Assembly (NCBI RefSeq): GCF_018881595.1
Contig: NZ_JACVQA010000001.1
Coordinates: 61,625 to 125,624, forward strand
Direction of reading: 5' to 3'
DNA: 64,000 bases
Source of the DNA: Polynucleobacter sp. UK-Gri1-W3
Lineage (GTDB): Bacteria > Pseudomonadota > Gammaproteobacteria > Burkholderiales > Burkholderiaceae
The notes below the pieces were generated by a model that saw nothing but the letters and a program-made list of their open reading frames with translations, was not told where the DNA came from and ran no database searches. The number at the start of each line of letters is the position of its first letter. Position 1 is the stretch's first letter. A program made the position numbers and the translations under genes. Shown here piece after piece: positions 1 through 16,678 of this stretch.

Positions 1-450
1 GCAGCTCAGGTAATAAAGTACTTTGGGTTCGATCTTGGCCAGTAATGAATCGTTTCATCTTCATGAACATCCGTTAATTAGTGATACTGAATTAACGTTT
101 GAGGGTGCTTAGGTGTTTACAAAAACAGGGGGATTATTGGGGGTTTTTACACAGCCTCGGCCAGCAGGAGACTTCTGGATTCCCCCTAGTAGCGACTCTA
201 CCAAGTTAATAAGTATTAAAAGGATTTAAGCCCTTATTTTTGTATTGACGGCGCATTTCTCCGCGAAGTCGCGCCCGCTATCGCCCAAAGGGTATCCAAA
301 CAACTCAAAATCACTTTATTGGTGCTAGGGGTATTCATAGGGTACCGGTTGGCTTAAAAGCCTAATGCTCTATACAATGTTTGCAGAAAAATCCTGATCC
401 TGCAGCCAGCCCGCTACCGCCTCAAGATAAAACTCAACCTTAGGCGAAGT
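1..450. other. Leading non-coding stretch
   Basis: No convincing gene lies here. One plus frame is open from base 1 to a TAA at 43-45 and could be the last 14 codons of a gene outside the window, but nothing identifies it. A TTGACG hexamer near 255 and short G-rich and T-rich runs near 127-150 are visible. No tRNA, terminator or convincing promoter could be assigned. Confidence 0.4.
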
Positions 451-1797: not shown

Positions 1798-1799
1798 CT

Positions 1800-2105
1800 A
1801 TGAAGAACATTACCAAACTACCCTTTGCAATTTGCTGCCTACTTATGTCTTCTGCTTATGCTCAAAATAGCCAAACCCAGCCAAAGTCTCAAATGCAGTA
1901 CGTGGGCACCTTTGAGGCAGGCCAACCCGGAGCAGGTATTTATAAACTTTATGACCAGTCCGATGATGTGATTTGTTATGTATTGATGCCCGATACGGCC
2001 TCAAGAAAACAGGTTGATGGCAAGTGGGTTTATGAATCAAATTCACTGGGCTCAATAAGCTGCCTTAAGGCTAATTCGACCCCAAAATCTGTAGTTAAAA
2101 AATAA
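1800..2105 (+). CDS. Small exported protein of unknown function
   Basis: This 101-aa protein has a typical Sec signal peptide (MKNITKLPF..., cleavage after AYA-Q near residue 21). The mature part is short and hydrophilic with a central CYVLMP segment and a second Cys near the C-terminus that could form a disulfide. It starts 2 bp after the adhesin stop codon, so it probably shares the adhesin mRNA. It may be periplasmic and help adhesin export or folding, but only position suggests that. No family was recognised. Confidence 0.6.
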   Translation: MKNITKLPFAICCLLMSSAYAQNSQTQPKSQMQYVGTFEAGQPGAGIYKLYDQSDDVICYVLMPDTASRKQVDGKWVYESNSLGSISCLKANSTPKSVVKK

Positions 2106-2256
2106 CCAAATTATCCAGAACCAACGGCAGCTGTGGGTCGATATTTGCCTCCAGTAGCTAACTAGCTTGAATGACTGCTTTTGAGATTTCTAGAGTCCTT
2201 GCTGATGCCATTAATTCAGCGCAAAGTGGTATTCCCTTTCACATAAGGAGAATGTC

Positions 2257-2880
2257 ATGGAACAGCTTATTGCAACTACGCATAAAGAACCCTGGAACAA
2301 AGGCAAACTGACAGGGCAGAAAGCACCACTTAAGTTAAAAGATATTTGGGCCATTCGGGTCCGACTTCAACTAAATGGCAACAAGCGGGATTTAGCTTTA
2401 TTTAATTTGGCTATCGACAGCAAATTAAGAGCTTGTGACCTAGTTAAGTTAAAAGTTCGAGATATCGCGACTGGTGACCATGTTTCATCTAGAGCCAACA
2501 TATTGCAACAAAAGACCCATCGACCAGTTCAGTTTGAAATTACTGAATTAACAAGGACTGCAGTTGAGCAATGGATTCATTCTGATGGTTTGCACTTGGA
2601 GGATTATCTATTCCCCAGTCGGATTAAAGAATCCCCACATTTATCGACTAGGCAGTATGCTAGGATTGTGCATAGTTGGGTTAGCTCTATTGGCTTGGAA
2701 TCAGCAAACTATGGAACGCACACCATGCGCCGCACTAAGGTTTCTTTAATCTATCGCCGGACTAAAAACCTACGAGCAATTCAGTTGCTGCTGGGTCATA
2801 CCAAGCTGGAAAGTACAGTTCGTTACCTAGGCATTGAAGTTGATGATGCTTTAGAGATGGCAGAACAAACTGAGGTTTGA
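2257..2880 (+). CDS. Short tyrosine recombinase without a core-binding domain
   Basis: This 207-aa protein is the catalytic half of a phage-type integrase. The tyrosine-recombinase residues are in order: Arg in KLRACDLVKL, Lys in QQKTHRP, the HTMRR box, the GH of LLLGHTKL and the nucleophile Tyr in STVRYLG. The N-terminal SAM-like DNA-binding domain of full integrases is absent. Such short recombinases are common in proteobacterial chromosomes and need not mark an active element. A good ribosome-binding site (AAGGAG) lies 8 bp before the ATG. No att repeats were found around it. Confidence 0.8.
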   Translation: MEQLIATTHKEPWNKGKLTGQKAPLKLKDIWAIRVRLQLNGNKRDLALFNLAIDSKLRACDLVKLKVRDIATGDHVSSRANILQQKTHRPVQFEITELTRTAVEQWIHSDGLHLEDYLFPSRIKESPHLSTRQYARIVHSWVSSIGLESANYGTHTMRRTKVSLIYRRTKNLRAIQLLLGHTKLESTVRYLGIEVDDALEMAEQTEV

Positions 2881-3027
2881 AATTGGGGAGGCTGCGTTAA
2901 TGCCATCGCCGCAGTCTACCCCTCTCTCATAAGCAGACAGTCAGATGGACTTTGGGCGATAGGCTCAATCCGACCCATAGCGGGCCATGATGGACGCTCT
3001 TTATCCGCAAATAAGTGCTGCATTCAA

Positions 3028-3597
3028 TTAATAGCTGATCTTTTGCGTCGCCCAAGACTGACAATACTCTACAGGATTCACACTACCGCCCTGGCTATTT
3101 GCAAGGCCAGACATCATGCATGAACTGTAATACCACTGCTTATCAGCAATGCATTGTATCCGTACGGAAGATAAAGACTGCCGAGATACATTACATGTAA
3201 TACCAGGTGCAGTGGTCGGCTGGCCTGGAGGAAGAGCACCATTAATTACTATATCGACAGGCTGCTCCACATAAGGCCACTCTGAAACAGATTGGGCGGT
3301 GATTTGCACATTAGAGCGAACCACCCATGGACCCTGAATAGTGTTTGCAACAATAGAATAAGGCATGCCATTGTTGTCTATGATTAAAGGATTATTGGGA
3401 TTTGATCGAATTGATTCGGGGGCCCTAGTAGAGGCATTTTGAGGGAAATTCAGTTGATTGATTGCTGGATTATTTATTCCCGCGACTTCCTGGCAGCGAC
3501 CTTCCAATGGAAGCATATTACCTGGACAGCCATCTAATGCAAATGCAGAAAATGGGAATATTGATAATGTAAAAACTAGGTAGCTAAATTTTTTCAT
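3028..3597 (-). CDS. Exported protein of unknown function
   Basis: This 189-aa protein has a clear Sec signal peptide (MKKFSYLVFTLSIFPFSAFA, cleavage before LDG). Six or more cysteines in the mature part suggest a disulfide-stabilised periplasmic or secreted protein. The middle contains an IRSNPNNPLII stretch and a VIVNGALPPGQP-like loop. It lies 19 bp downstream of a lipoprotein gene on the same strand and probably shares its transcript. No family was recognised. Confidence 0.6.
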   Translation of the reverse strand: MKKFSYLVFTLSIFPFSAFALDGCPGNMLPLEGRCQEVAGINNPAINQLNFPQNASTRAPESIRSNPNNPLIIDNNGMPYSIVANTIQGPWVVRSNVQITAQSVSEWPYVEQPVDIVINGALPPGQPTTAPGITCNVSRQSLSSVRIQCIADKQWYYSSCMMSGLANSQGGSVNPVEYCQSWATQKISY

Positions 3598-3616
3598 TTG
3601 CGCTCTTTTTAATGAT

Positions 3617-4840
3617 TTATCTTAATAAAATTCCTGGGGAGGTCGGAATACTGCCAGGTATCTTATTCAGGCTCAGCAATGACGAGATGATCTTAATAAC
3701 CATAGGAGAATATCCATTACCTTCGGAAGGTATGTTGTAAGTATTACCATCAAGATTTTTCACGCTAGCAAAACTTTTACTGCTTGAATCATTCTTACGG
3801 ACTACAAGCAATGCATATTGGTTCTCTTGGCCAACTTTTCGCGCATAAGTTGATTCAGAGGGTGGCAAAGTAACCATATATGGCTTAGGTTGATTTTGAG
3901 CGGCCACTACCTGACCAAGAAACTCAAAAACACTATTGGTTGATCTAACGGTCAAAATTAATTCAGCCTTCGAGCTTTTTTTCTTGCTGACAGCTGAACT
4001 TGATTTGCAAAATATTTCAGGGCTAAATTCTTCTTTAACAAAGTTAGCAAACTTGTTTTCGTCAACACAAACCTTATATTGTGTGTGAGGCTGTGTTTGC
4101 CCATACATCCCTCCTCCACCATACCCACCCACACCACCATACCCACCCATACTCGGATAGGTAGCATATGGATTAGGTTGCGGATAGTTCGGCATACCGC
4201 CTAACGGAGGCTGGCTAAGTTTATTTGGCTCTTCTTGGACCTGGTCTACTGTTAACCCATAACTAAGCAAGCGATACAGTTCCGCCTGAAATGCAGGATA
4301 TTCAGGAAGTAAAGGGTTATTCATGTACTTCACTGAAGTACCATCTGCCTTCTTAATTTGAATCGAGCTAATAATTAAACTAAACATTACCTCTCTGGGC
4401 AAGTTATCAGAGATAAAGAACTTGGCTGTTTCAATGGGGATTTGCGATAAAAACCCACGCAAGAATGTTGCGTTATCTAAAGAGGATTGTGAAAAGTTAA
4501 AACTGTTACCAAAAGATAAATTCAGGCTTGGGCTAATTGATGCAATTCCAGCAGGACCACCAGCCAACCCACCAATAAAGCCATTCATTGATCCGCTGAT
4601 AGAAGGAGATGTTGTAACGCTCCCAGAACCGTTGATGCTTGGAATATCCAAAAAGCTTAACGGCCTCTCATTTGAAGCTCGAACAATATTGATCAAAATA
4701 CTATTGAGCTGATATTGCTCCAAGATACCAGCATAATTTGCTGACATCTCTGTAAAGTCTGGCGTAACAGGAGTGGTGCAGCCTCCAACTGTTAGAGCGG
4801 CAAATGTAGCAGCAAAAATTCGTTTGAGCGGTAAAGTCAT
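3617..4840 (-). CDS. Predicted lipoprotein of unknown function
   Basis: This 407-aa protein has a lipobox (ALTVGGC, Cys near residue 21), so it should be lipidated and anchored in a membrane. An N-terminal segment NSILINIVRASNERPLSF is followed by a glycine/serine-rich region (about 70-115), an alpha/beta-looking middle, a Pro/Tyr/Gly-rich linker (about 215-250, GGYGGVGGYGGGGMYG) and a conserved-looking C-terminal half. It is transcribed with the exported protein downstream and the two membrane proteins upstream. No enzyme motif is visible. Confidence 0.6.
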   Translation of the reverse strand: MTLPLKRIFAATFAALTVGGCTTPVTPDFTEMSANYAGILEQYQLNSILINIVRASNERPLSFLDIPSINGSGSVTTSPSISGSMNGFIGGLAGGPAGIASISPSLNLSFGNSFNFSQSSLDNATFLRGFLSQIPIETAKFFISDNLPREVMFSLIISSIQIKKADGTSVKYMNNPLLPEYPAFQAELYRLLSYGLTVDQVQEEPNKLSQPPLGGMPNYPQPNPYATYPSMGGYGGVGGYGGGGMYGQTQPHTQYKVCVDENKFANFVKEEFSPEIFCKSSSAVSKKKSSKAELILTVRSTNSVFEFLGQVVAAQNQPKPYMVTLPPSESTYARKVGQENQYALLVVRKNDSSSKSFASVKNLDGNTYNIPSEGNGYSPMVIKIISSLLSLNKIPGSIPTSPGILLR

Positions 4841-4853
4841 AAGGGCTTAGGTA

Positions 4854-5327
4854 TTAAATAGGTAAAAGTAGCAATACAGTGAGAGATGCTGACACACCAA
4901 AATCCCAAATAAGAATTAGCGTGTTATTTGGAGCAAAATTTCTATTAATTATGATTTCCTTGAGATGATTTATACCAGCAAAAAATAGAAACGTAACCAC
5001 TGGAATGGAAATGGAGATCTGGGCAGTCCTGCCCCAATAAAGTGAATAAAAACAAGAGACGCCAAGCCCTAATGAGACAGCTGCAATTTCGTACTGAAAT
5101 CCGTTTGTTACCCACCCAATAGTCTTAGCCATCTTTTTAGCAAAAATAGAGTGCATCACTGAGGCAGATAAAAAAGCAAACCCGCAAAAATATAAGAGCC
5201 AATTAATCGCGTATTGTGCAAACTGGTTAGCCTCACTCATACCAGGAGGAATCGAACCAGAGATAGCCAATCCCCATGCCATAAAAAATAAACCAGGAAA
5301 AACAAATCCCGATACTTTTTCACTCAT
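4854..5327 (-). CDS. Integral membrane protein of unknown function
   Basis: This 157-aa protein is almost entirely hydrophobic, with about four to five predicted membrane helices (GLFFMAWGLAISG, WLLYFCGFAFLSASV, IAAVSLGLGVSCFY, IPVVTFLFFAGINHL, ASLTVLLLLPI). Its ATG overlaps the last 8 bp of the upstream HXXEE-domain gene, so the two are translationally coupled and may form one complex. No functional residues were recognised. Confidence 0.6.
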   Translation of the reverse strand: MSEKVSGFVFPGLFFMAWGLAISGSIPPGMSEANQFAQYAINWLLYFCGFAFLSASVMHSIFAKKMAKTIGWVTNGFQYEIAAVSLGLGVSCFYSLYWGRTAQISISIPVVTFLFFAGINHLKEIIINRNFAPNNTLILIWDFGVSASLTVLLLLPI

Positions 5328-5955
5328 GCGGCAATTGCCTTTCGGTTGGAATTAAAAATCGCCTTGAGAAAACATATGGCGTATCTTTATCGGCCAACCA
5401 AATAATCATCTTATATACACCGAAATAATTAAGAATTAACCCAAAGCAAATCCCTAGAGCCCAATCCAATCGACTTGCAAGATTTTCTGTAATAACCATA
5501 TCAAAGAAGAAATACACGATGGGTGCAAAGCATAACCAAGAAGTAATCAACCCTGGGTTGTATAAAGTCTTGCCTTTGATATTAAAAATAATGGTGTGAG
5601 CAACAATATTTCCAATCGATACCATCATGGTTGCAAATGCCAACCAAATAGCTTGCTGCCAAAATAGGGCTGCCAACACATAACTACCCCAGCCAAAAAA
5701 GACATTGACGATCATGCCGCTGTTGGTGTTTAGCGGATAACGATCAGGAATATCGCTACTGAACAGCGCAGTATTAAGCATTCCTGGAAAGTATCCTGGA
5801 TAACGCCACTCTTCTATCTGGTGCAAAAACAAAGATCCAAGACTAAGCCATAAAAGCAAAGTCATGCCAGATGGCTGGGTAATATAAAGTGCACCAGCCA
5901 AAGCAATTACTAAGGCAATTGCTAGATCAAACCAGTGGTAGCGAAGATAGTTCAA
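5320..5955 (-). CDS. HXXEE-domain membrane protein
   Basis: This 211-aa protein has several membrane helices. The segment LHQIEEWRYPGYFPG near residue 45 contains the His-x-x-Glu-Glu signature of the HXXEE family (known from family knowledge; biochemical role unsettled). It overlaps the downstream membrane-protein gene by 8 bp. The four-gene minus-strand run from 5955 down to 3028 (HXXEE, membrane protein, lipoprotein, exported protein) looks like one envelope-associated operon. Confidence 0.65.
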   Translation of the reverse strand: MNYLRYHWFDLAIALVIALAGALYITQPSGMTLLLWLSLGSLFLHQIEEWRYPGYFPGMLNTALFSSDIPDRYPLNTNSGMIVNVFFGWGSYVLAALFWQQAIWLAFATMMVSIGNIVAHTIIFNIKGKTLYNPGLITSWLCFAPIVYFFFDMVITENLASRLDWALGICFGLILNYFGVYKMIIWLADKDTPYVFSRRFLIPTERQLPHE

Positions 5956-5958
5956 GTC

Positions 5959-6162
5959 CTAATAGCCCTCAGTTTTTCTAAACTGGTTACCAACACAGCT
6001 TAAGGCTCTCTGAACAATTGACTGGCAAAGATTGATAACTACATTTTGGCAACCTTGTGCCTTGAACTGTCTTTCGATTTCTATATAGCAACCAGAGTAC
6101 ATACGATCCATCAATTGGCATCCTAGATTAGTAGAACAATGGGGGGTCCTGATGATTCGCAC
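5959..6162 (-). CDS. Small cysteine-rich open frame
   Basis: This 67-aa frame starts at GTG and has no signal peptide. It has five cysteines (HCSTNLGCQL, GCYIE, QGCQ, LCQ, SCVG). It ends 3 bp before the HXXEE gene, so it could be the first gene of that operon or the decayed tail of a longer exported protein whose upstream part is no longer open. Coding status is uncertain. Confidence 0.35.
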   Translation of the reverse strand: MRIIRTPHCSTNLGCQLMDRMYSGCYIEIERQFKAQGCQNVVINLCQSIVQRALSCVGNQFRKTEGY

Positions 6163-6502
6163 TAGTTTTAAGCTTCAATCCTAATAACGTCAGCTAGTGA
6201 TATGAACTAAACTGAGCTAATGCAAGATGTAATAAGAAAGGTAATTATTCCGAGAATTTCTCTATTCTTCATTTAATTAGCTCTTAATTTTTATTCTTAA
6301 TAAGTTTACAAACCATAGGTTTTACAAGCTTGAACTCTTTGCTTTATATAATCGCATGAAGTCGGATTGCAAGTTATTTTCCAGTCTCATATAAGTTTAC
6401 TTTTTAAAGGCAGATTAGAAACGATTTTGTCAGATATCTCCCCGCCTCCCTTAATCGCTTTACAAATATGATGACGTTATCAGGACAACCGAAATATTTA
6501 CT
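6163..6502. other. AT-rich intergenic region
   Basis: These 340 bp are strongly AT-rich and hold no open frame with a credible start. They separate two minus-strand transcription units, so they probably contain the promoter of the 5.9-3.0 kb operon and the end of the 6.8 kb gene. No clear hairpin terminator was found. Confidence 0.4.
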
Positions 6503-6847
6503 TTAACGTAATCGATTTTTCATCCGTGATTCAAATATCAGAGAGGGCGAATTGCCCGCAAATGCATTAGCGTTAACCTTTGCTTGCCACCTATACACGC
6601 TTGGACAATTCAATGTCTCAAAATATTCACGGTTTATCGCAACACACTGTGATTGGCCATAGTTTACCCAGTTAGGCTGACAATCCATATAGTCATCAAA
6701 CATGCTCACACATGCTTGATATCCAGGCACCACTGGCGGTGGCATATACGGATTATATGATGGATCAATTATTCCCACCATGCCGTTTTGAGCAGAAGTG
6801 CTACTACAAAAACTCAAAGCAACTATTATTAAGGCTATTTTTTTCAT
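6503..6847 (-). CDS. Small exported protein of unknown function
   Basis: This 114-aa protein has a short Sec signal peptide (cleavage near TSA-Q, residue 19). A Pro/Tyr-rich segment (SYNPYMPPPVVPGYQ) follows, then four cysteines (QACV, MDCQ, QCVA, LNCP) that probably form disulfides. It sits 79 bp downstream of the GH5 gene on the same strand. No family was recognised. Confidence 0.5.
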   Translation of the reverse strand: MKKIALIIVALSFCSSTSAQNGMVGIIDPSYNPYMPPPVVPGYQACVSMFDDYMDCQPNWVNYGQSQCVAINREYFETLNCPSVYRWQAKVNANAFAGNSPSLIFESRMKNRLR

Positions 6848-6926
6848 AACGAATTCCTCATCAAAACCTTTCTAGTTCCTAAAAATTTAGTCTTAAAGTC
6901 AGTTGCTTGTCAGATAATGCTTGTTT

Positions 6927-8453
6927 TCATAGTCCCTTAACTAAAATTTTCACATTTTTAGCATCACTCTGATTTAATAAAACTAATAGATTGGCATTTC
7001 GCGTCGACACAACTTTTGCGCCCTCAACGAATACCTCATAGCCATTTTTAAATCTTTCAGAGGGAAGGATAATTTCAGTGCGTGCATTAATATCAAGCCG
7101 CTGACCGGATGGACTATTTGTAGAGTAGCTCAACTGAAATAGTTGACGCTCAGGATGAAATGACCACTCAAGAGGCGTTCCTGAAACCGCCTGAGGATAA
7201 GGCCATGTAAGCGCATTTAATCGATCAACCATCAAATTTGGCGTAGTTCGCGGTTTGTTTAAATCCCATACCAAACCCTGTCTAAAGGCACCCGGCAAAA
7301 AACTTGATGGAGCAGGATTGGCATAAGTCCAATAGATTGCTGGCATCATGGCCTTATCCAAACGCATAGAGCCTGCAGTAATTTCAGCGGGTACCATATT
7401 TTCAGTCAATGGTTTGTCGCCAGTAAAGGCACCCCATTCAGTAGCTAGCAATGGTAAATTTGGAAACTTGTTGTGGTAAACAAATGTATTTGCCAATACA
7501 TGGCCCATCGTAAGATAGGGATGAAAAGAGAAGCCTAAATTTGGTACGTTAGGTGGTGTGACGTGAGTGGCTGTACCAAAATCAAAAAATACACTGGGCT
7601 CAAAAAATATCAATGTTTTTGAGTCAACATTTCGGATTTTGCTACTAACTTTTTCAATAAATTTTGCATAAACCCCTTGATCGAAGAGGATACATTCATC
7701 ACCTAACATTTTTGCTTTACATACAGTCCCTGGATAAGGCTCATTCATGATTTCATATCCAACTATTCCCGGTGTGCCGCCAATAGATTTAACTACGTAA
7801 GCCCATGTTTCGGCATAGCGATCCTGCAAGCCAACCAAACCGGTTGATGCAGAATTTTTGTTTTGCCAAAATCCATCCCAGGCATCAGATACGCTAAGAT
7901 CCGTCAACTCTCCCTTTGGGAATGGCAATTTATTTGGATTACAGCCTTTAGGAAATTTTGCAAAATTGACAATAGTTGCCCAGTCTGGAGCTCCAACACC
8001 ATTGCAAGACGTTGAATACTGATCTTGATGCATGTCTAGCAAGGTATTGATTCCGTAGGTCTTTAGCATCGTAATCGTATTAGAGATGTCTTTGAGATAT
8101 ACGTCATTATATTGTCCGGGACTCGGCTCAATAGCGCCCCAAATAATTCCAAGTCGTACGATATTCATACCTGCGGCGCGAATGATTCTGGCATCTTCCT
8201 CAGTAATGCCCGAGCTTAAATATGTATAAGGTGAGTTTTTGTTAACTAAATTTACGCCTCGAAAGATTACTACCCTCCCCTGTTGATCAGTCATCCATCT
8301 ACCACTTGCTACAAGAGGGGTAGGCAAGGCTCCTATTTTTTCGGCTAATGAGGTAGATGGCTTGTCATTGCTGCAAGCACTTAAAAAAAATGTTGCCAAA
8401 ATCACTATGATGCTTCCCATCAAATTTTGCAACTGAAGTACATGCCTCATCAT
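6927..8453 (-). CDS. GH5-family glycosidase lipoprotein (endoglycoceramidase-like)
   Basis: This 508-aa protein has a lipobox (TFFLSAC, Cys27) and a TIM-barrel glycoside hydrolase family 5 domain. The acid/base Glu is E238 in GYEIMNEP and the nucleophile Glu is E339 in LLATEWGAF. The FRGVNLV strand, the DMHQD strand and the SFHPY strand also match the family. The extra C-terminal beta domain (about 420-508) and overall length resemble the endoglycoceramidase subgroup that cleaves glycolipid or glycoside linkages. The substrate is unproven. It would act from a membrane-anchored position facing the periplasm or the outside. Confidence 0.8.
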   Translation of the reverse strand: MMRHVLQLQNLMGSIIVILATFFLSACSNDKPSTSLAEKIGALPTPLVASGRWMTDQQGRVVIFRGVNLVNKNSPYTYLSSGITEEDARIIRAAGMNIVRLGIIWGAIEPSPGQYNDVYLKDISNTITMLKTYGINTLLDMHQDQYSTSCNGVGAPDWATIVNFAKFPKGCNPNKLPFPKGELTDLSVSDAWDGFWQNKNSASTGLVGLQDRYAETWAYVVKSIGGTPGIVGYEIMNEPYPGTVCKAKMLGDECILFDQGVYAKFIEKVSSKIRNVDSKTLIFFEPSVFFDFGTATHVTPPNVPNLGFSFHPYLTMGHVLANTFVYHNKFPNLPLLATEWGAFTGDKPLTENMVPAEITAGSMRLDKAMMPAIYWTYANPAPSSFLPGAFRQGLVWDLNKPRTTPNLMVDRLNALTWPYPQAVSGTPLEWSFHPERQLFQLSYSTNSPSGQRLDINARTEIILPSERFKNGYEVFVEGAKVVSTRNANLLVLLNQSDAKNVKILVKGL

Positions 8454-8573
8454 TGAACCGCCCCTAATCTATTTGGATTTGGGCATTAGCCCAAGGAATA
8501 ACGAATGTTGTAATTGATATAGAATTCAAAAACAAGCGATAAATTTGAATCAAGCGGTCGGTTTTGAAAGAAA

Positions 8574-9278
8574 GTGACTATGGCAAGCAAGCAAAAAGTA
8601 TCCAAACCCCTGCATAAATCCAATTCTCCTGTTGCTAGAACAGGTCAAGGCAGTACGCTTAAGAAGCGTCTTTTAAATGCCAAAGAAGGGGATCTTTTAA
8701 GCGGTAGAGAAAAGATTTTGGTGGCGGCCAGGGCCTGCTTTGCCAAACAAGGCTTTGCTGGCACCTCCATGAAGGATATTCAAGTGGCCGCAGACTGTTC
8801 GCGTGGAAACTTGTATCACCACTTCAAAGCCAAAGAAGAGATAGTTCAAATCATTACGTCGCAAAACTTGGGTCGGTTCTGCGATCGGATCGAGGCCATT
8901 CTCAAGGAATCCGATGAACGTGACTTTAGTCTGTTAGAGATTATTCAAGAATTAGCCGCTTTTGCTGAAGAAATCACCAAGGGTCCCGGCAAAGGGATTG
9001 CATTTCATGTGTGGTCACTGTCAATGGTTGAACCTGAAGTACGCAAAACTACGCTGATCTACTTTGAACGGATTCGTAGCGGCTTAGAGCAAAAAATTAT
9101 TCTCTTGATGAAAAAAGGCAAGTTGGAAAAAAATAAAAATTCTGAACAGTTATCCGTAGCTCTATTTGGATTAGTCATACCCGGCTTTACTGTACAAAGC
9201 GTATTTATGGATAAAAAAGCAATTGATTCTTTGCAGTATGCCGAATCGCTAGATTTATTATTGAAGAGTAGTTCGTAA
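8574..9278 (+). CDS. TetR-family transcriptional regulator
   Basis: This protein is 234 aa from GTG at 8574, or 232 aa from the ATG at 8580, which is better spaced from an AAGAAAG ribosome-binding site. After a basic tail, residues 43-90 form the TetR helix-turn-helix (ILVAARACFAKQGFAGTS, then SRGNLYHHFKAKEEIV). The rest is a helical ligand-binding domain. It is divergent from the GH5 lipoprotein gene across 120 bp, so it may repress that gene. That is inference only. Confidence 0.85.
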   Translation: MTMASKQKVSKPLHKSNSPVARTGQGSTLKKRLLNAKEGDLLSGREKILVAARACFAKQGFAGTSMKDIQVAADCSRGNLYHHFKAKEEIVQIITSQNLGRFCDRIEAILKESDERDFSLLEIIQELAAFAEEITKGPGKGIAFHVWSLSMVEPEVRKTTLIYFERIRSGLEQKIILLMKKGKLEKNKNSEQLSVALFGLVIPGFTVQSVFMDKKAIDSLQYAESLDLLLKSSS

Positions 9279-9297
9279 AGTTATCGACAGCCCTCTA

Positions 9298-9319
9298 TTG
9301 GCCGATTTGAGACGGCCAA
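9298..9319. terminator. Dyad after the TetR gene
   Basis: TTGGCCG (9298-9304) and CGGCCAA (9313-9319) form a perfect 7-bp stem with an 8-nt loop, 20 bp after the TetR stop codon. There is no long T run, so termination is possible but weak. Confidence 0.4.
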
Positions 9320-9382
9320 ATCTATAAAATTTCCCAGCTTTAATGGCTGCAATTGCTTAAATAAGGGGCTAGAGCTTGCTGG

Positions 9383-10126
9383 CTAGGGCGCTTCAAAAAC
9401 GCGAATTACCTGAACATTTTGAATGCTCTTGAGCGCCACTAAAAAACACTCCTGACCAAAATCCCCCAGCCTTTCCTCGAAATAATCTCTTAATGCATCT
9501 GTATGAAGCTTAAGGACCCGCTCAGATCTGGCTGCTATTGTTATTTTAACAAAAAAATAGAAAAGTATTGTCAGATACATCCAAGTAATTTTGTTTAAAT
9601 TTGCCGCCTGTAAACCTAGCATCTCCAATGGGCTTACTGGATGCTGAACATCTATCTCGGGATTTCTTCCGTAACGCCAGCTTTCAATCTGCGGGAGGGG
9701 GTGTCGTTTCACTTGATGATCAAGAAACACCTCGTCAATTCGCTTAAGTACCTCTGCTTCACTAATTGAGTTCAGCTCAAATAAGTCCCAAAGCCTGGAA
9801 TTGAAAACAATCGAGGTGCCCTGAAAATCAGGATGCATCTCTACAACTTCAACCAGCTCTTCAATACCTCTTCTATGGCCAGCTTCCCGAGGATATATTC
9901 CACGTCGCCATATTTTTTCAAATGCTTTAGGGGGCTCAAAAAAAACTTCCCCAGGATCCTTGCCCAAGAACATCTCGTCCAGCGCCTTATAGGGAAGGGC
10001 TGTGCGCTCTTTTACCTCCAGGCACCATAACTTAGCCCGCGCTATTGCAAGGGATGTCTTTCTTTGTCCGCCTCTAGACTTTTTTACTTCCAATTCCATG
10101 GGCAGGGGCGATTGAATCTGATTCAT
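9383..10126 (-). CDS. Hypothetical protein with one possible membrane segment
   Basis: This 247-aa protein has a basic N-terminus (KKSRGGQRKTS), a mixed helical middle rich in Trp and Glu, and one hydrophobic stretch near residue 183-197 (TWMYLTILFYFFVKI). No catalytic motif or family was recognised. It faces away from the Tn7-like module. It lies between the TetR gene and the candidate transposon end, so it is probably chromosomal or from an older insertion. Confidence 0.5.
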   Translation of the reverse strand: MNQIQSPLPMELEVKKSRGGQRKTSLAIARAKLWCLEVKERTALPYKALDEMFLGKDPGEVFFEPPKAFEKIWRRGIYPREAGHRRGIEELVEVVEMHPDFQGTSIVFNSRLWDLFELNSISEAEVLKRIDEVFLDHQVKRHPLPQIESWRYGRNPEIDVQHPVSPLEMLGLQAANLNKITWMYLTILFYFFVKITIAARSERVLKLHTDALRDYFEERLGDFGQECFLVALKSIQNVQVIRVFEAP

Positions 10127-10416
10127 TGTTCCTTGAGTTTATGTGAACCCCGTCCCAAAATGAGCGAAATTTTGATACTCGCTAAATGATAAGAAACCCA
10201 GTTAATCAGGTTTGCCCATCTCAATAGGCTATAGCGCGCCTAAAGTTGGGCTGCCTCAAGTACCCAACGACCCATTCAACTATTTACACGGGGCCAGTCA
10301 ATACCCCCCATGCGCCTAAAGAGCCTTATGAACACACCAGAAAAATACCGTACCTTAAGCAGGCCATTCCACTGGCCAACAAGCTCTAAAATTATTTGTT
10401 CAAAATTTAGAAAAAG
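10127..10416. other. Intergenic region left of the candidate transposon end
   Basis: No credible gene is present. A plus open frame beginning at 10310 runs through the candidate transposon end and has no family resemblance, so it was rejected. If the module inserted here, this stretch is the chromosomal target flank. No tRNA, rRNA or conserved gene end was recognised in it. Confidence 0.4.
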
Positions 10417-10521
10417 TGTTGACATTTACAAAATTATCATGCGGGGTATTGACAAATCGACGATCTTGGATTATGATGGCTACTCTCTCATAGCAAATCG
10501 TCGTCCTTCAAGGGGATGGCT
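10417..10521 (+). repeat. Candidate end of the Tn7-like element with putative TnsB sites
   Basis: TGTTGACA (10417-10424) begins with the TGT typical of TnsB-family ends and is echoed by TATTGACA 30 bp later (10447-10454). A second pair of imperfect direct repeats follows, CAAATCG..CG..CTT..GATGGCT at 10453-10481 and 10494-10521 (about 19 of 28 positions match). Spaced repeats like these are how TnsB sites look in Tn7 relatives. The matching inverted end was not found in the window, so the call is tentative. Confidence 0.38.
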
Positions 10522-10566
10522 CTTCGGAAAGTCAGCAATTAATATGAATGCATCGAGCATCATTAC

Positions 10567-10596
10567 AACCCGGTTCAACACTTGTGCAACCTGGTT
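10567..10596. promoter_or_regulatory. Two 9-bp palindromes 21 bp apart
   Basis: AACCCGGTT (10567-10575) and AACCTGGTT (10588-10596) are palindromes of the form AACC-N-GGTT whose start points are 21 bp apart, close to two helical turns. This is the geometry of a paired operator for a dimeric repressor. They lie between the candidate transposon end and tnsA. Confidence 0.4.
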
Positions 10597-10792
10597 TCAA
10601 TATCCAAAAGCTTCTCAACAATATGGCAAGCTAATCAATAAGGCTCTCATAAGCCTCTTATCTCGCGTTTACACAATTAACGCATCTTCGAAAAAATTGC
10701 AGTATTTAGCACCAACAAAGCTCTTGCATGGACAAAGCCGTCCAAGCCTGCCCCTCGAATTCAACTCAGAAGAAAACGAGGCACCCAAAATG

Positions 10793-10859
10793 TAAAAAGC
10801 CGAGTTAACCTTGAGGGTTAAACCGGCTTGTCCGATTAAATCGGGTTACTGCGTATCGT
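10793..10859 (-). ncRNA. Candidate small RNA opposite tnsA
   Basis: On the minus strand a good sigma-70-like promoter is visible: TTGCTT (plus 10889-10894), a 17-bp spacer, then TATACT (plus 10866-10871). About 67 bp downstream an intrinsic terminator ends the unit: stem AGCCG plus GGTTAA/TTAACC (10798-10828) followed by five T on the minus strand. Between them is a second hairpin, CCGAT-TTA-ATCGG. No start codon with a usable frame lies in the unit. Promoter and terminator are seen directly, but transcription is not shown. Confidence 0.4.
10798..10828 (-). terminator. Intrinsic terminator of the candidate small RNA
   Basis: The stem arms are AGCCG (10798-10802) with CGGCT (10824-10828), and TTAACC (10805-10810) with GGTTAA (10816-10821). 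They enclose the loop TTGAG with a 2x2 internal loop. A-tract 10794-10798 reads as a T tract on the minus strand, so it should stop leftward transcription. Confidence 0.6.
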
Positions 10860-11000
10860 AGCGAAAGTATACCCGCTTCTTTTTTGACAAGCAAATAAAT
10901 TCCCTCAATTTTTTTAATGAAAAACGCTCTATCGAGCGAGGGGGATTCTTTACCTAAAAAACAAAGAATTCGCAAAGTAAATGTCATGAAGGAGAAATAC

Positions 11001-11699
11001 ATGAACACAATTAATGCAACATCAAACGGAAATTTAATTTCCACTAAAAACCAAGTAAGCACAACTTACAAACCTGCAAGACAACCCGGAGGCAAAAGAA
11101 AAGCGCCACATCGCCGGATTAACTACCTCAATATTCCAGCGCTACAAGATGACCTCATCATCTGCGAATCCATCCTAGAGCGTGATTGCGCCTTAATTCT
11201 TGCACTCAACCCAGAAGTAGTTCGCATTGAGTGTCAGCCCGAGACCATCAGCTTAGGTGAATGCGGGGAATATACACCTGATTTTCGGGTTATCTATAAG
11301 TCAGGGCCACCATCTTATGTAGAAGTAAAGCCAACTGTATTTGCATACGAGAAAAAAATGTGGGCAAAGATTTGCGCTGCCTTTGAATACTACAAATCTC
11401 AAGGAATCCATTATGAGTGGATATCGGACTGGGAAATAGAAAAGAAAGATAGGCATCTCAGAGCCGCATATATTCATCGTTGCGCAAGATTATTAATACC
11501 TGTAGAGCAAAGTCAAAAAATCATTCAAGCAGTGAGCAATTACCCTCAGGGAATACGAATGGATGATTTGCAAGCTATTACTGGCCTATTAACTGACCAT
11601 ATTCTTCACTGCGTTGGCCTGCGTCAACTCAAGCTCAATCATTTTTTTGAGTACTCCCTAGACAGTCTTGTATTTCCATTGAAAGGAGAATGCAAATGA
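11001..11699 (+). CDS. tnsA: TnsA-like endonuclease of a Tn7-like transposon
   Basis: This 232-aa protein should nick the 5' ends of the transposon, allowing cut-and-paste movement with TnsB. The PD-(D/E)XK nuclease residues are visible: E56 in ESILERD, D94 in YTPDF and E108-x-K110 in SYVEVK. The C-terminal part (about 150-232) looks like the winged-helix TnsA C-domain that contacts TnsC. The frame is open from 10917, but AAGGAG ends 8 bp before the ATG at 11001, so that start is preferred. Its TGA overlaps the tnsB start as ATGA. Confidence 0.85.
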   Translation: MNTINATSNGNLISTKNQVSTTYKPARQPGGKRKAPHRRINYLNIPALQDDLIICESILERDCALILALNPEVVRIECQPETISLGECGEYTPDFRVIYKSGPPSYVEVKPTVFAYEKKMWAKICAAFEYYKSQGIHYEWISDWEIEKKDRHLRAAYIHRCARLLIPVEQSQKIIQAVSNYPQGIRMDDLQAITGLLTDHILHCVGLRQLKLNHFFEYSLDSLVFPLKGECK

Positions 11700-13663
11700 T
11701 TGGGTATTCAATTCAAAACGGATTTTCAGCAAGCTATGGCGGCGTAGAGTTTTCATTCGAACGTATGAGCGCCCCTGGACCACAAGAACGTACCGTATCA
11801 CTCATTAATCGGGCAGAAAACCGACCCGTTGAATTTTTAGAGCATGAAATTTGCCAAAAGATTGACCATGGCGAAATGAAAGTACTCACCAGCGGGCTAA
11901 TGACCAAGCCAGGCCAAGTTGAGAATGTACACATACAAAAATCTCCATACCAGCTCCACTACGAAGCCCAAGTCTATGCCTACTGCAAAGGATTAGAGCA
12001 AAGAGGCATCTCCAAAGGGATGCGCAAACAAATTGAGGCAGCAATACGACAGATTGCTCAAGAAATTGTAGATGACAAACCGCCCAGCACATCAACCGCA
12101 ATGCGCTGGATGCGAGAAGCCGGCGGAAATCCCGCCAACTATAAAAACGTCACCCAGAGCTTCCTATTGCAAAAAAGAGCCTCCAAGAAACCACTAGCAA
12201 TTCTTGAAATTGCCAAAGAAATTCTTGATGACTACTATTTCATCCCTAAAACAGGCATCCAAAAACCGGATGATATTGAAACCTGTACCGCGAGAATTAA
12301 TCTAGAGTTTGAAAGACGCGGCATTGACGAGAGCATGAGCATGAGCGCTGTCAAAAGAATGATTTACAGAGTGCCAGCTTACGAAAGAGACCGCATTCGC
12401 CTTGGAACGGCAGAGGCAAAGTACAAACATCGCCACTCATCAGGTGGCAGATGGCCAACCAGAGCTTTTGAAACGGTTGAGCTTGACCATACCGTGCTGG
12501 ACTTAAATGTAGTAGACCGCCTTACAGGAAAGCAAATGGCAAGGCCTACGATTACGGTTCTCAAAGACCGCTATACGGGCTACATCCTTAGTATGTGGAT
12601 TGGCTATGAAGGCGAATCGATTGGGCGAATTGTAAGGGCCATTAGCGGGGCATTAGAAGACAAGAGGCATCTTAAAGATGAATATGGACTTTCGCACGAA
12701 TGGCTCACTACACCCATCATTTGGGAAAAACTGGTTCTAGATAACGCCTTATCTCATCACTCCGAGATTTTGCACTCGATGGCTAAAAACCTTGGATTTA
12801 GTATCGAGTTTTCTGCAGTTCGTTCGCCATGGGAAAAAGGTTCTGTTGAAAATTTAATGCTGCAATTTACTAGAGCGCTGCCACATCATGGTCGCCCCAC
12901 TAAGCCCACTGAAGTTAAGTCAAAGCAGTCCAAGAAACTAGAAAAGGCTCGGGTGTATTTTGATGATTTAGTTCAATACCTTCATCAGTTTGTAGTGGAT
13001 ATTTATCCCCACAAACTGAATAAGAGAACTAATACCAGCCCTTATATAGAGATGGAGAAGGCTCTGAGAGAGCATGGCAGTCTACCTAAGATTCATTTCA
13101 CCCCCTTATCGGATGAATTAAGAATCCTCACCTCCCGCTCTTTTGACAGAGCTTGCAAGCATGGAGGGATTGAGCTCAATGGGCTAACTTACAGAAGTCG
13201 CGAGTTAAGCGAACTAGTCCACTCTATAGGCCCTAAGCAAAAACTGAGAATTTGCCAAGACGTCAATGATATTGGCGAGGTTTTTGTGCTACACCCAAAA
13301 TCTAATCAATGGATTAGCGTTCCAGAAAAAAACTATTCCCAGGCCAAAGGCAAGCCCCTTTACAAACATAAGTTAGAGCGTAAAAAAATAAATCAAGACC
13401 TTCTTACTAATGGCATTAAGCAAAAGGACTGGAATGCACGCATTGAGCAATCTGATGCTGTAACGCAACTCGTTGCAAATGGGGTAAGACCCGAAAAAAT
13501 TAGCGGCAAAGAAGCAAGGGCTAGCAATATTCATGGGGGTAGTCCGAACGGTGATAGAGGGCTTATCGATGTCGAGGTAAAGGAAATTACCCAAAACACA
13601 ATTGGGCGAGACTTTATGCCCGAGACTGTTGGCACATCCAATAACAAACTTATCGAAGAATAA
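11696..13663 (+). CDS. tnsB: TnsB-like DDE transposase
   Basis: This 655-aa transposase of the TnsB/TniA/MuA group binds the transposon ends and performs 3' strand cleavage and transfer. The catalytic triad reads D264 (VELDHTVLD), D349 (LVLDNALSHHS) and E385 (SPWEKGSVENL). Helix-turn-helix DNA-binding regions precede the core (about 80-240), and a beta-barrel and a charged tail follow. AAGGAG at 11683-11688 favours the ATG at 11696 over 11690. That start overlaps the tnsA stop by 4 bp, so the two are translationally coupled. Confidence 0.9.
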   Translation: MIGYSIQNGFSASYGGVEFSFERMSAPGPQERTVSLINRAENRPVEFLEHEICQKIDHGEMKVLTSGLMTKPGQVENVHIQKSPYQLHYEAQVYAYCKGLEQRGISKGMRKQIEAAIRQIAQEIVDDKPPSTSTAMRWMREAGGNPANYKNVTQSFLLQKRASKKPLAILEIAKEILDDYYFIPKTGIQKPDDIETCTARINLEFERRGIDESMSMSAVKRMIYRVPAYERDRIRLGTAEAKYKHRHSSGGRWPTRAFETVELDHTVLDLNVVDRLTGKQMARPTITVLKDRYTGYILSMWIGYEGESIGRIVRAISGALEDKRHLKDEYGLSHEWLTTPIIWEKLVLDNALSHHSEILHSMAKNLGFSIEFSAVRSPWEKGSVENLMLQFTRALPHHGRPTKPTEVKSKQSKKLEKARVYFDDLVQYLHQFVVDIYPHKLNKRTNTSPYIEMEKALREHGSLPKIHFTPLSDELRILTSRSFDRACKHGGIELNGLTYRSRELSELVHSIGPKQKLRICQDVNDIGEVFVLHPKSNQWISVPEKNYSQAKGKPLYKHKLERKKINQDLLTNGIKQKDWNARIEQSDAVTQLVANGVRPEKISGKEARASNIHGGSPNGDRGLIDVEVKEITQNTIGRDFMPETVGTSNNKLIEE

Positions 13664-13677
13664 AAAAGGAGGCACAT

Positions 13678-14535
13678 ATGAACATCATCAAACCAATCTC
13701 AGTAGCCGAGCAGATGAGAAATGTAATTATTACCCATGATGCCTATGCAAAAGTGGTTAATGGGTGCATTAAGATTATCCAATCTGGCGAGCGCATTAAT
13801 CGCTCAAATAAAGGTATCGCCATTATGGGTAGCGGTGGTACCGGCAAATCCACCGCCATAGAACACCTTAAGAGCTATCTAAATAAAAAGTATGCCGGGC
13901 AATTTAATGCCCCCGTATTGCTTACCAAGGTTTCTAGCGATACAACTATCAAATCTTTTTACATTGGTATTTTGGGCGAACTTAACCATCCCATTACCGA
14001 CAAGCGAGAAGATAAAAACATTACGGCAGATAAGCTACAAAAGCTTGTGGTATGCGCACTTAAAGGGCATGTTGGCACGCTCTTTATTGACGAAGTCAGC
14101 GATGTCTTTAGTAATCGCAATAAAAAACAATTTGCACAAGACTTCTTGGTGATGATTAAGCATCTGCTGAGCGATACCTCAATCAACATTATTTTGGTTG
14201 GAACGCCAGCTCTTGAACAATTGTTTGAAATTGCAGATGAACAATTTCGTACTCGATTTCCATCAAAGTTTGAGTTGCCGATATTCGCAATGGATACCAG
14301 CTGGGTGCGTCTTTTAAATGATTATGTTGCACAAACAACCAAAATCTATGACATCAGCATCCTTCCAAATCTATTTTCAGAACTGCATGAGTGGACTGGG
14401 GGCAACCTGCGTAACTTAGCCAATCTGCTAACTACTGCGTTTGATGTGGCTGAGCAGGAAAAGGCGCCAGCATTAACGGCGCAGCACCTGCTAGATGCAA
14501 GAGACCTAATCTTTCCATCCCTCATGGCCGCTTAA
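13678..14535 (+). CDS. tnsC: TnsC-like AAA+ ATPase
   Basis: This 285-aa AAA+ regulator links target selection by TniQ to the TnsAB transposase. Walker A is GSGGTGKST (residues 51-59, K57) and Walker B is LFIDEV (D137, E138). The arginine and sensor region follows around IILVGTPAL and FRTRFPSKFEL. At 285 aa it is close to the short TniB/TnsC forms and much shorter than Tn7 TnsC. A strong AAAGGAGG lies just upstream, 14 bp after tnsB. Confidence 0.88.
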   Translation: MNIIKPISVAEQMRNVIITHDAYAKVVNGCIKIIQSGERINRSNKGIAIMGSGGTGKSTAIEHLKSYLNKKYAGQFNAPVLLTKVSSDTTIKSFYIGILGELNHPITDKREDKNITADKLQKLVVCALKGHVGTLFIDEVSDVFSNRNKKQFAQDFLVMIKHLLSDTSINIILVGTPALEQLFEIADEQFRTRFPSKFELPIFAMDTSWVRLLNDYVAQTTKIYDISILPNLFSELHEWTGGNLRNLANLLTTAFDVAEQEKAPALTAQHLLDARDLIFPSLMAA

Positions 14536-14536
14536 G

Positions 14537-15550
14537 ATGCAATTGGACTGGCTAAGGCCTATTACCTTTCCCAATCATGACCAGATTCACGACGAGGAAT
14601 CGGGCCCTGGCTACGTCCTGCGCATGTGCGATTTAAATCTTGTGCAATTTTGCGATATCTCCAATATTTTGGGATTAACTGGCTTTACTTACATTCCCGA
14701 TAATCGCATTCCTGAGATTTGCAGGCTATTTGGAGCCAACCACTTTAAGCTTGTGCCCAGATTTGTCGCTCAATCTAAACAAAAGAGCATTGTTACCACT
14801 TTTGTAATGGGTCATAAGCTTCAAAAGCCATACTTAGCACGTCAGCGTCACCCGCAGATATGTCCACATTGCTTGGCAAGCAAGCGCATTGTGCAATTAG
14901 CGTGGGATATTACGCTAGTGACCGCCTGTCACATTCACCACAATCAACTCATTGATAGCTGTGCCCAATGTGGACGGAAAATCACATGGCGTAGAAGTAG
15001 CCTAATCAACTGCCAATGCGGGGCATCTTTTTTGCCCATGCATCAACCAAGTAAATTGGCTAGCAAAGCAGAAATATACGTATCTCGATTAATTTGGGAA
15101 AAACTATTTGGGATTTTTGAACCAAAAAATCACTCCCTATCATTTCTAAATAATCTTCAATTAGATACGGCTTTACGCCTCATTTGGTCATTTGGACAGT
15201 TAGAAGACGATGGGCGTAGCCTTTCAGTTCGGCCCGGAAAGGTTCCAAGCACTGCTATTGCGGGGCAAGTGGTGAAAAACGGGATTGAGCGTATTTATAA
15301 AACCCTGAATCACCAAGAAAATAGGAGTAATTTCACATCAAGTATTTATATCAATGGAATCAAACAACTTAAGAAAGATACCCCATGGAATGACCAGCTA
15401 AAAATTCAATACCTAATTAACTTAATTGTCGAAAAAGACCTCACTACGTCAAAGCTACCTAGCTTGACCACTCACAATCAACTTACTCTTTTCGGAACTT
15501 CTACACATGAGAAAACACTACAGACTTTTAACCGCCCCGCGCGTTATTGA
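14537..15550 (+). CDS. tniQ: TniQ-family target-selection protein 1
   Basis: This 337-aa protein has an N-terminal TniQ fold (about 1-100) and Cys/His zinc-binding motifs: C109-P-H-C112, then C131 and nearby His, C142-x-x-C145-G, and a C-x-C-G pair near 155. It starts 1 bp after the tnsC stop codon. TniQ/TnsD proteins recognise the insertion target and recruit TnsC. The target of this one cannot be read from sequence. It overlaps the next gene by 44 bp. Confidence 0.85.
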   Translation: MQLDWLRPITFPNHDQIHDEESGPGYVLRMCDLNLVQFCDISNILGLTGFTYIPDNRIPEICRLFGANHFKLVPRFVAQSKQKSIVTTFVMGHKLQKPYLARQRHPQICPHCLASKRIVQLAWDITLVTACHIHHNQLIDSCAQCGRKITWRRSSLINCQCGASFLPMHQPSKLASKAEIYVSRLIWEKLFGIFEPKNHSLSFLNNLQLDTALRLIWSFGQLEDDGRSLSVRPGKVPSTAIAGQVVKNGIERIYKTLNHQENRSNFTSSIYINGIKQLKKDTPWNDQLKIQYLINLIVEKDLTTSKLPSLTTHNQLTLFGTSTHEKTLQTFNRPARY

Positions 15551-16319
15551 GACAGAATCACCTGCTTCTTGGCTACTAAGATTATGTTATTTACATCAAA
15601 TGAAATTCGATGATGTATTTACCTCTCACAGATTAGGCCCGCCAAAAGATATTGATATTGCCTCTTATTGCAAATTATTCAAACGATTTGCCTACAGCGG
15701 CGATATACCGCCAAGCCACCTAGATGCAATAGCAAAATGGTTTGAGCCCTTAGTGAGAAGCTCACGAGCCAAACCAGCAGTTTTAAAGGAAATTAATAAA
15801 ACCCCTTATTCTCGCTTTTGTCCTCACTGCCTAGAACAAGACAAGATTCCGCACTTTCGCCCAGAGTGGCGCCTCAAATTTTGGACAGTCTGCCCAGAGC
15901 ATCAAAGCAAAATGCACGATGAATGCCCAGAATGCGGGGAACATCAACATACAAATAAGGTCAACCTCAAGCTTGATGCGCAGAAAAATGAACGAGCCTT
16001 GCAATACTGTCTCCATTGCAATGCAGACCTTACGAAATCATGCGCTCGACACCGTTCCGACAAGGAAACCCATGACAAGCTGATTGCGCAAGATTACCTG
16101 CTCAAAATTTGCCGATTCGGTAAATATTCAGTAGAGCCCTACATTATGAATCCAGAAAATCAAGCAATCTCAATAAATTCTAGCTATGCCCTCACTGATA
16201 CTCAGCGACTGATAGTTAATTTTCACATGGCTTATATTGAATGCTCAGAAAACAACCGCATCTTTATTGGCTTTAAAAATCCAATCAGAAAGAGAAGCAG
16301 CGAAGAACTCTATATGTAG
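15507..16319 (+). CDS. TniQ-family target-selection protein 2
   Basis: This 270-aa protein is a second TniQ. Its N-terminus (APRVIETESPASWLLRLC) aligns in pattern with the first TniQ (ESGPGYVLRMC). Zinc motifs FCPHC (about 111), VCPEH, ECPECG and YCLHC follow. It begins inside the end of the first tniQ (44-bp overlap), so the pair is co-translated. Two TniQ proteins in one element suggest either two target pathways or a heteromeric target complex. Both are inference. Confidence 0.82.
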   Translation: MRKHYRLLTAPRVIETESPASWLLRLCYLHQMKFDDVFTSHRLGPPKDIDIASYCKLFKRFAYSGDIPPSHLDAIAKWFEPLVRSSRAKPAVLKEINKTPYSRFCPHCLEQDKIPHFRPEWRLKFWTVCPEHQSKMHDECPECGEHQHTNKVNLKLDAQKNERALQYCLHCNADLTKSCARHRSDKETHDKLIAQDYLLKICRFGKYSVEPYIMNPENQAISINSSYALTDTQRLIVNFHMAYIECSENNRIFIGFKNPIRKRSSEELYM

Positions 16320-16340
16320 ATAGAGTGTCAGCTAGACTAG

Positions 16341-16365
16341 AGACTGCTTCGGCGGTCTTTTTTTT
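16341..16365 (+). terminator. Intrinsic terminator of the transposition operon
   Basis: AGACTGC (16341-16347), the tetraloop TTCG, GCGGTCT (16352-16358) and then a run of T to 16365. The stem is 7 bp including one G-T pair. It lies 22 bp after the second tniQ stop codon. Confidence 0.85.
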
Positions 16366-16672
16366 GCGCCTCATCCCAAAAAAGTATGATCGCTATCGAA
16401 CTTTTTACTCATAAGTTCATTCGTTAACGAACCATATCAAGAGGTATCTTTTTTTGGGTAATTTGGTACCTCATTGTTTTTAAAGAGAATCTTTGTTTTT
16501 AAGAATTCAATCCTTAAAGAACTCCAACAGCAGATCCCCATAAATTCTTTAAGGATTTAGCCTCTATCTATACTTTGGACAGGCTGGTAGGACTATTCCT
16601 ACAGATAAATCAGCTTAAAGCCCTTACCGCTCCAATCCGTCCTGCCTAGACTGGACAGTCACCGATTGGAGA
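16366..16672 (+). promoter_or_regulatory. Dyad-rich regulatory region before the phosphorelay operon
   Basis: This region has no gene but several dyads. TTCGTTAACGAA (16420-16431) is a perfect 12-bp palindrome. AATCCTTAAAGAA (16509-16521) and TTCTTTAAGGATT (16545-16557) form a perfect 13-bp inverted repeat with a 23-bp gap. GTAGGA-CTAT-TCCTAC (16587-16602) is a small hairpin. Such symmetric A/T-rich sites would suit a dimeric response regulator of the NarL/BvgA class, encoded two genes downstream. Binding is inference. Confidence 0.5.
16630..16671 (+). promoter_or_regulatory. mRNA leader hairpin that hides the ribosome-binding site
   Basis: CTCCAATC (16630-16637) pairs perfectly with GATTGGAG (16664-16671). 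The right arm contains GGAG, the Shine-Dalgarno sequence placed 7 bp before the ATG at 16679. GTCC and GGAC inside the loop can add a nested stem. Folding would block initiation, so translation of the operon's first gene may need an activator or a competing structure. Confidence 0.5.
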
Positions 16673-16678
16673 ATGCTG

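Follow-up and report, generated by a model that had tools for sequence, protein, structure and literature searches.

The window analyzed here, a stretch of 64,000 nucleotides from Polynucleobacter sp. UK-Gri1-W3 (G000:C1:61625-125624, by genome and contig), bears an intact operon of five genes on the forward strand, tnsA-tnsB-tnsC-tniQ1-tniQ2 (10917-16319), which is part of a Tn7-like transposon lying beside groES. The first gene (10917..11699, with an alternative start at 11001) codes for a TnsA of 260 amino acids (aa) with the Pfam domain PF08722 (Tn7_TnsA-like_N, 2e-9), for which a PDB search at 0.01 returned no match; its E/D/K residues are E84, D122 and K138 in the long open reading frame (ORF), i.e. 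E56, D94 and K110 when counted from Met29, the start at 11001. It is followed by genes for the 657-aa transposase TnsB (11690..13663), with a Mu-transpos_C domain (PF09299, 2.6e-6), a PDB match to the TnsAB fusion of PseCAST (3.9e-24) and the DDE residues D266, D351 and E387 (D264, D349 and E385 when numbered from the second Met), and for the 285-aa AAA+ ATPase TnsC (13678..14535), which matches TniB (PF05621, 3.1e-18), has the TnsC 30ga as its best PDB match (2.3e-8) and displays the motifs GSGGTGKST and LFIDE, which we label Walker A and Walker B. The last two genes, tniQ1 (14537..15550, 337 aa) and tniQ2 (15507..16319, 270 aa), code for proteins with the TniQ domain of target selectors (PF06527; 8.3e-10 and 3.5e-16, respectively) and overlap by 44 bp (15507-15550). 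Thus, the ORFs, Pfam matches and residues agree with a preliminary description of this DNA, which had proposed the gene order, its intactness, the catalytic residues and the tniQ overlap; both the TnsABC core with its catalytic residues and the TniQ-domain selector that characterize Tn7-like transposons are present.

The limits of the transposon were set by comparison with relatives whose site is empty, the site lying between groES-groEL and a gene for a 282-aa protein (at 16673 in the window) without a Pfam match; GroES and GroEL were named from their translations, without a family search. On the groES side, the match to these relatives stops at C1:59796 in G000, from which an insert of 18,353 bp follows, and close relatives align with the window from about 16530 rightwards. 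The left end lies at G000:C1:59801, 1,824 bp outside the window, and the right end at 16529, with positions 1..16529 of the window belonging to the transposon. The inverted repeats begin TGTTGGAG; the left end, TGTTGGAGTTTCTTAAGGATTGAA, and the right end, TTCAATCCTTAAAGAACTCCAACA (16506..16529, reverse strand), match at 25 of 30 bases. The element is flanked on either side by identical copies of GCAGA, the right one at 16530..16534, and thus has both the terminal inverted repeats and the 5-bp target duplication of a Tn7-like transposon. The host flank from there to the 282-aa gene (16535..16672, forward strand), which is the attachment region, is conserved in the empty-site relatives. Position 10417, where the preliminary description began its stretch, was considered as a left end and rejected: the candidate end has no second copy at three or fewer mismatches in the window, and the empty-site comparison places the ends elsewhere. 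The position marks only a TGTTGACA string, of which the window has two copies where 2.2 would be expected.

No Cas effector was detected among the element proteins scanned (18 by Pfam and 10 by PADLOC, from ORFs of at least 100 aa, or at least 60 aa to the left of the window), and the window's element contains no close-spaced repeats typical of a CRISPR array. The earlier statement that no CRISPR system is present extends, by Pfam and a repeat scan, to the stretch of the element that lies outside the window on its left side. Neither of the two components that define a CRISPR-associated transposon (CAST), a Cas effector and an array within the element, was found. PADLOC matched its CAST models of TnsB, TnsC, TniQ1 and TniQ2, along with weak ATPase matches to TnsC; such CAST-model matches are to be expected from homology.

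Insertion beside groES in Polynucleobacter

A TniQ search of the genus Polynucleobacter yielded 25 places in 13 of 186 genomes. By our family profiles, 16 of these constitute eight TniQ1-TniQ2 pairs, namely those of G000, G035, G137, G149, G150, G013 (contigs C1 and C8) and G169 (contig C154, on which only part of tnsC precedes the pair); a locus in G020, cut by the contig end right after tnsC, is counted as the ninth of the family in the genus. The remaining nine places comprise single TniQs in G019 (twice), G169 (C538), G044, G065, G079 and G163 (cut by the contig), and two TniQs in G071 that the family profiles did not match. Seven of the nine loci fall in a single interval, from groES to the following gene: in G000, G035, G137 and G150 one contig holds both flanks, and in G149, G013 (C1) and G020 the flanks are on separate contigs. 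Those on G013 C8 and G169 C154 are unplaced. The interval is empty in all 12 aligned relatives (the 14 loci L010-L023 minus L020 and minus L017, the latter lacking the anchor string). The comparison of insertion sites proposed at the outset therefore points to a fixed attachment site of the kind used by Tn7-like transposons, a single interval with three insertion positions.

These positions were termed types A (G000, G149 and G150), B (G137) and C (G035). Four of the five elements have exact 5-bp duplications (GCAGA in G000, GCAAA in G149, TCAAA in G137 and GAAAT in G035), and the fifth, in G150, has CAAAT and GCAAA, one base out. Near groES stands a CIRCE-like repeat; it is separated from the duplication by 33 bp in G000 and G149, 34 bp in G150, 51 bp in G137 and 190 bp in G035, where the insertion falls among the opening codons of the gene for the 282-aa protein. 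At the G013 and G020 junctions the two end types differ, as judged by eye. Among the papers listed by literature searches (without supplements), none describes a Tn7-like insertion at groES or this family, and in the main text of PMC8649781 the words groES and groEL are absent.

The window is 96.7% identical to G150 over 9293-16993, including 464 bp of host flank, and about 75% identical over the longer right host flank; the cargo left of orfX, an accessory gene described below, differs between the two genomes. Such near-identical copies in two species hint, indirectly, that the element may transpose.

Several minor observations concern the same site. In G140 (contig C5, L124/L125) it holds a short palindrome resembling both type-A ends joined, without a TniQ match, and an orfX with stop codons lies about 21 kb from the palindrome; this locus is apparently a decayed element. 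In G076 (L072) and G008 (L073), genomes without a TniQ match, the groES interval is taken up by different insertions, about 14.7 and 2.5 kb long, and G008 keeps an apparent type-C end. In the window, the 13 bases TTCTTTAAGGATT of the host flank (16545-16557) also occur in the right end (16506-16529) read inward. With the empty site of the relative G145, the right end shares 11 bases, which is the 95% level of its single-base shuffles and perhaps due to chance, and the left end shares 12 bases, above the 95% level of 11 (largest 13, likewise in single-base shuffles), with the match falling on the side of the 282-aa gene.

The TniQ1 and TniQ2 lineages

Zinc-finger-type cysteines are kept in both TniQs across relatives and, together with the Pfam matches and the separate conservation of the two proteins, they bear out the earlier claim of two genuine zinc-finger TniQs. 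The proteins were modeled singly from shallow alignments of 18 and 12 rows, with a pLDDT of 72.6 for TniQ2 and 80.5 for TniQ1. TniQ1 finds its best matches, by profile as well as by model, among I-F3 TniQs (best fold match 6v9p, 3.2e-7), and its predicted fold is like that of the I-F3 CAST adaptor TniQ. The TniQ2 model, which matches the TnsD 8v32 (1.4e-4) and the V-K TniQ 8bd5 (7.3e-4), is that of a predicted minimal TniQ core with a low-confidence tail (residues 206-270, nearly all with pLDDT below 50).

Tree comparison separates the two proteins into distinct lineages: in a tree of 34 hand-picked TniQ rows, from which near-duplicates and weaker matches of the family-wide TniQ search described below were left out, a branch with 100/98 support divides TniQ1 from TniQ2. 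Small groups found on one side reappear on the other, and deeper down their order differs or is uncertain. Against a simple two-lineage picture stand the support of only 86/59 for TniQ2 as a single group and the positions of the single TniQs, two of which lie to the TniQ1 side of the branch and ten to the other.

A TniQ search of 299 genomes of the taxonomic family matched 70 of them, mostly weakly and often to proteins of more than 400 aa. Three more genera of the family carry the five-gene operon, and the further dual-TniQ members are G311, G208, G283 (Trinickia), Cupriavidus pinatubonensis, the Comamonas testosteroni plasmid pNFYY023-1 and a 2.5-Mb replicon of Paraburkholderia caribensis. 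Other dual loci, for example in Thiobacillus, Azonexus and Paraburkholderia ginsengiterrae, code for larger proteins of TniQ/TnsD size with far lower scores. Both tniQ genes are open in 14 of the 15 members uncut in the TniQ region (G020 being excluded), and on this comparison TniQ1 and TniQ2 are separate lineages inherited as a pair. The exception is Burkholderia stagnalis LMG 28156, with tnsABC and, 139 bp after tnsC, tniQ2, but without tniQ1; because its TnsB groups with that of Trinickia (G283; SH-aLRT 99), the TniQ2-only state reads as a nested loss of tniQ1. Of the counterexamples named beforehand, a one-TniQ homolog thus exists once, but its TnsB is 33% identical and the element is not otherwise identical. 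A further 11 operons have a single TniQ, which is TniQ2-like; the four of these included in the TnsB tree branch outside the dual-TniQ clade.

The dual-TniQ operons that G013 has on its contigs C1 and C8 (L074 and L030) differ from each other. In G311 (L095 581-2584), a gene on the same strand after tniQ2 codes for a 667-aa tyrosine recombinase (DUF3701 and Phage_integrase), which recalls TnsF.

Proposed target selection by small TniQ proteins

Two tandem tniQ/tnsD genes in the tnsC locus are a feature shared with the dual TniQ-TnsD transposons surveyed by Faure et al. 2023 (PMC10293859). The part of that paper available to us reports 998 such loci, with one branch mostly lacking Cascade, suggests direct and indirect targeting, and describes tests of dual pairs in CASTs. 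One of the two proteins is usually longer than 400 aa there, a usual and not a defining trait, whereas here they have 337 and 270 aa. The I-F3 CASTs (PseCAST Tn7016 and Tn6677) provide the nearest solved TnsB and TnsC and the closest matches to TniQ1, but differ in that neither Cascade nor an array was found here and a second TniQ is present. Like the Tn6022 family, in which, according to the same partial source, TniQ and TnsF target comM, the present element combines a small TniQ, a fixed site and no CRISPR; unlike it, there is no TnsF-like gene after tniQ2, which is followed by the right end and host DNA. With the V-K CAST ShCAST it would share the minimal core predicted for TniQ2 (TM score of 0.64, normalized to the target), whereas Cas12k is absent and TnsA present here. 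Hence a dual TniQ without Cas has been reported before, and what is new is the combination of two small TniQs, no TnsD and one fixed chromosomal site.

We posit that the operon belongs to an intact Tn7-like transposon, CRISPR-free as found, which homes to the groES interval, and that its targeting is probably protein-guided, with TniQ1 and TniQ2 acting jointly on TnsC. By analogy with Tn7, TnsA and the transposase TnsB would perform cut-and-paste transposition with TnsC as regulator; within the pair, TniQ2 might be the minimal core and TniQ1 a fuller adaptor, and the site would be read by the two or by a partner that binds them. More speculatively, and on balance doubtfully, the insertion region might be set by a TniQ1/TniQ2 heteromer itself, or via a host protein resident in the promoter region of groES, for instance a repressor on the CIRCE-like operator; if true, this would represent a mode of CRISPR-free targeting not described in the literature consulted.

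Several points weigh against joint action of the pair in an active element. Both tniQ genes are constrained, yet less so than tnsABC: between G000 and G150, the ratio of nonsynonymous to synonymous rates (dN/dS) is 0.015 for tnsA, 0.067 for tnsB, 0.059 for tnsC, 0.176 for tniQ1 and 0.221 for tniQ2, figures that derive from few changes (e.g. 8 synonymous in tniQ2); orfX shows 0 synonymous and 1 nonsynonymous change, and between G000 and G149 dS is saturated in four of six genes and above 1.7 in the other two. Neither TniQ model displays a TnsD-like or otherwise recognizable DNA-binding extension and both proteins are shorter than 400 aa, so that the earlier suggestion that both may bind DNA finds no backing. 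The pair is not strictly needed, unless the B. stagnalis element is dead. The left flank is 90% identical to that of G150 over 893 bp that include groES and the left end of the element.

Alternatively, the two TniQs might serve two pathways, one directed at the groES region and the other at a second class of targets such as plasmids, as with TnsD and TnsE of Tn7 or in dual CASTs. This is the usual logic of Tn7-like elements in the available part of PMC11406308, which also notes that TnsD of Tn7 uses the host proteins L29 and ACP, and the five-gene operon does reside on the C. testosteroni plasmid and the P. caribensis replicon. We nevertheless consider it a tentative possibility, as all seven placed Polynucleobacter loci share a single chromosomal interval, TnsD-type extensions are lacking in both TniQs, and there is one ordinary plasmid case only, from scans of three of the four plasmid regions viewed. 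In another reading, the small TniQs are adaptors and a third partner reads the site, be it OrfX or a host protein bound near groES, for instance on the CIRCE-like operator; this draws on the type A insertions, 33-34 bp from the repeat, and on the presence of orfX in nine of the 186 genus genomes, seven of them with the dual-TniQ family. In the part of PMC10293859 available, small TniQs are also described as typical of elements that have further target selectors. Such a third partner appears unlikely to us, given the distances of 51 and 190 bp between the repeat and types B and C, the lack of orfX in G035, beside G013 C8 and in the regions from Cupriavidus, Trinickia and G208, and the occurrence of a protein related to OrfX away from tns genes.

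That one TniQ is a dispensable relic, a reading to which the TniQ2-only element of B. stagnalis lends itself, is improbable in view of the open reading frames kept by nearly all uncut members. Least credible is descent from a CAST that lost its Cas genes: TnsB, TnsC and TniQ1 are indeed nearest to I-F3 CASTs among solved structures, but the TniQ pairing is old and common to several genera, and no Cas remnant was detected in the window's element, to which the Cas scan pertains.

The element bears on how small TniQs choose a site without Cas or a DNA-binding extension, and on why two TniQs are retained at about a thousand of the Tn7-like loci surveyed (PMC10293859, as far as available). Because the element and its relatives keep inserting beside groES, they provide, in a freshwater bacterium, a good test case for the finding of a fixed site by small TniQs. 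The family offers a compact five-gene system with exact ends, a defined region, many empty relatives, varied positions and a natural TniQ2-only variant, and site choice by small TniQs is therefore directly testable.

Cargo, orfX and the leader of tnsA

The cargo comprises a DDE transposase gene (its translation containing a run of X), a YadA-like adhesin, a GH5 cellulase, a TetR regulator, unknowns and, far from the operon, a 207-aa tyrosine recombinase (2257-2880). Divergent from tnsA is the accessory gene orfX (9383..10126, reverse strand, 247 aa), which has no Pfam, NCBIfam or PADLOC family, gave no match against plasmids and phages, and recurs beside tnsA in several related elements. As an obligatory component it was downgraded, given its absence from several relatives and the related protein found away from tns genes. 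The latter is a 331-aa protein in G150, and in Lysobacter chinensis tnsA is preceded by a weak relative of 424 aa; outside the window, the orfX family is represented at L127 1694-2689 and L193 5261-6532.

Upstream of tnsA, a promoter-like TTGACA-17-TATGAT (10449..10477, forward strand) amounts to a consensus match only, at 11 positions out of 12, in a region with no more such sites than its shuffles. Searches against RNA families gave a best E of 0.063 in 1-24000 and no match in 10100-11000, and the idea of an RNA guide was set aside, the tnsA leader sharing no stretch of at least 10 bases with the 1,000 bp around the G145 empty site. Compared with shuffles, the 3' part of the leader folds better (z of -2.79), with a z of -0.32 for the 5' part and -1.73 for the G149 counterpart. 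The leader forms a cassette (10473..10914, forward strand) with a conserved 5' block, a variable middle that contains a short ORF whose translation starts with MNA and closes with PKM or TKM, and a conserved 3' block. It is also found in G149, G150 and an island of G035, i.e. in four of the 186 genomes including the window's own (copies at L068 6554-7178 and L204 7984-8581), and the G035 copy has no tns gene within the 18 kb fetched.

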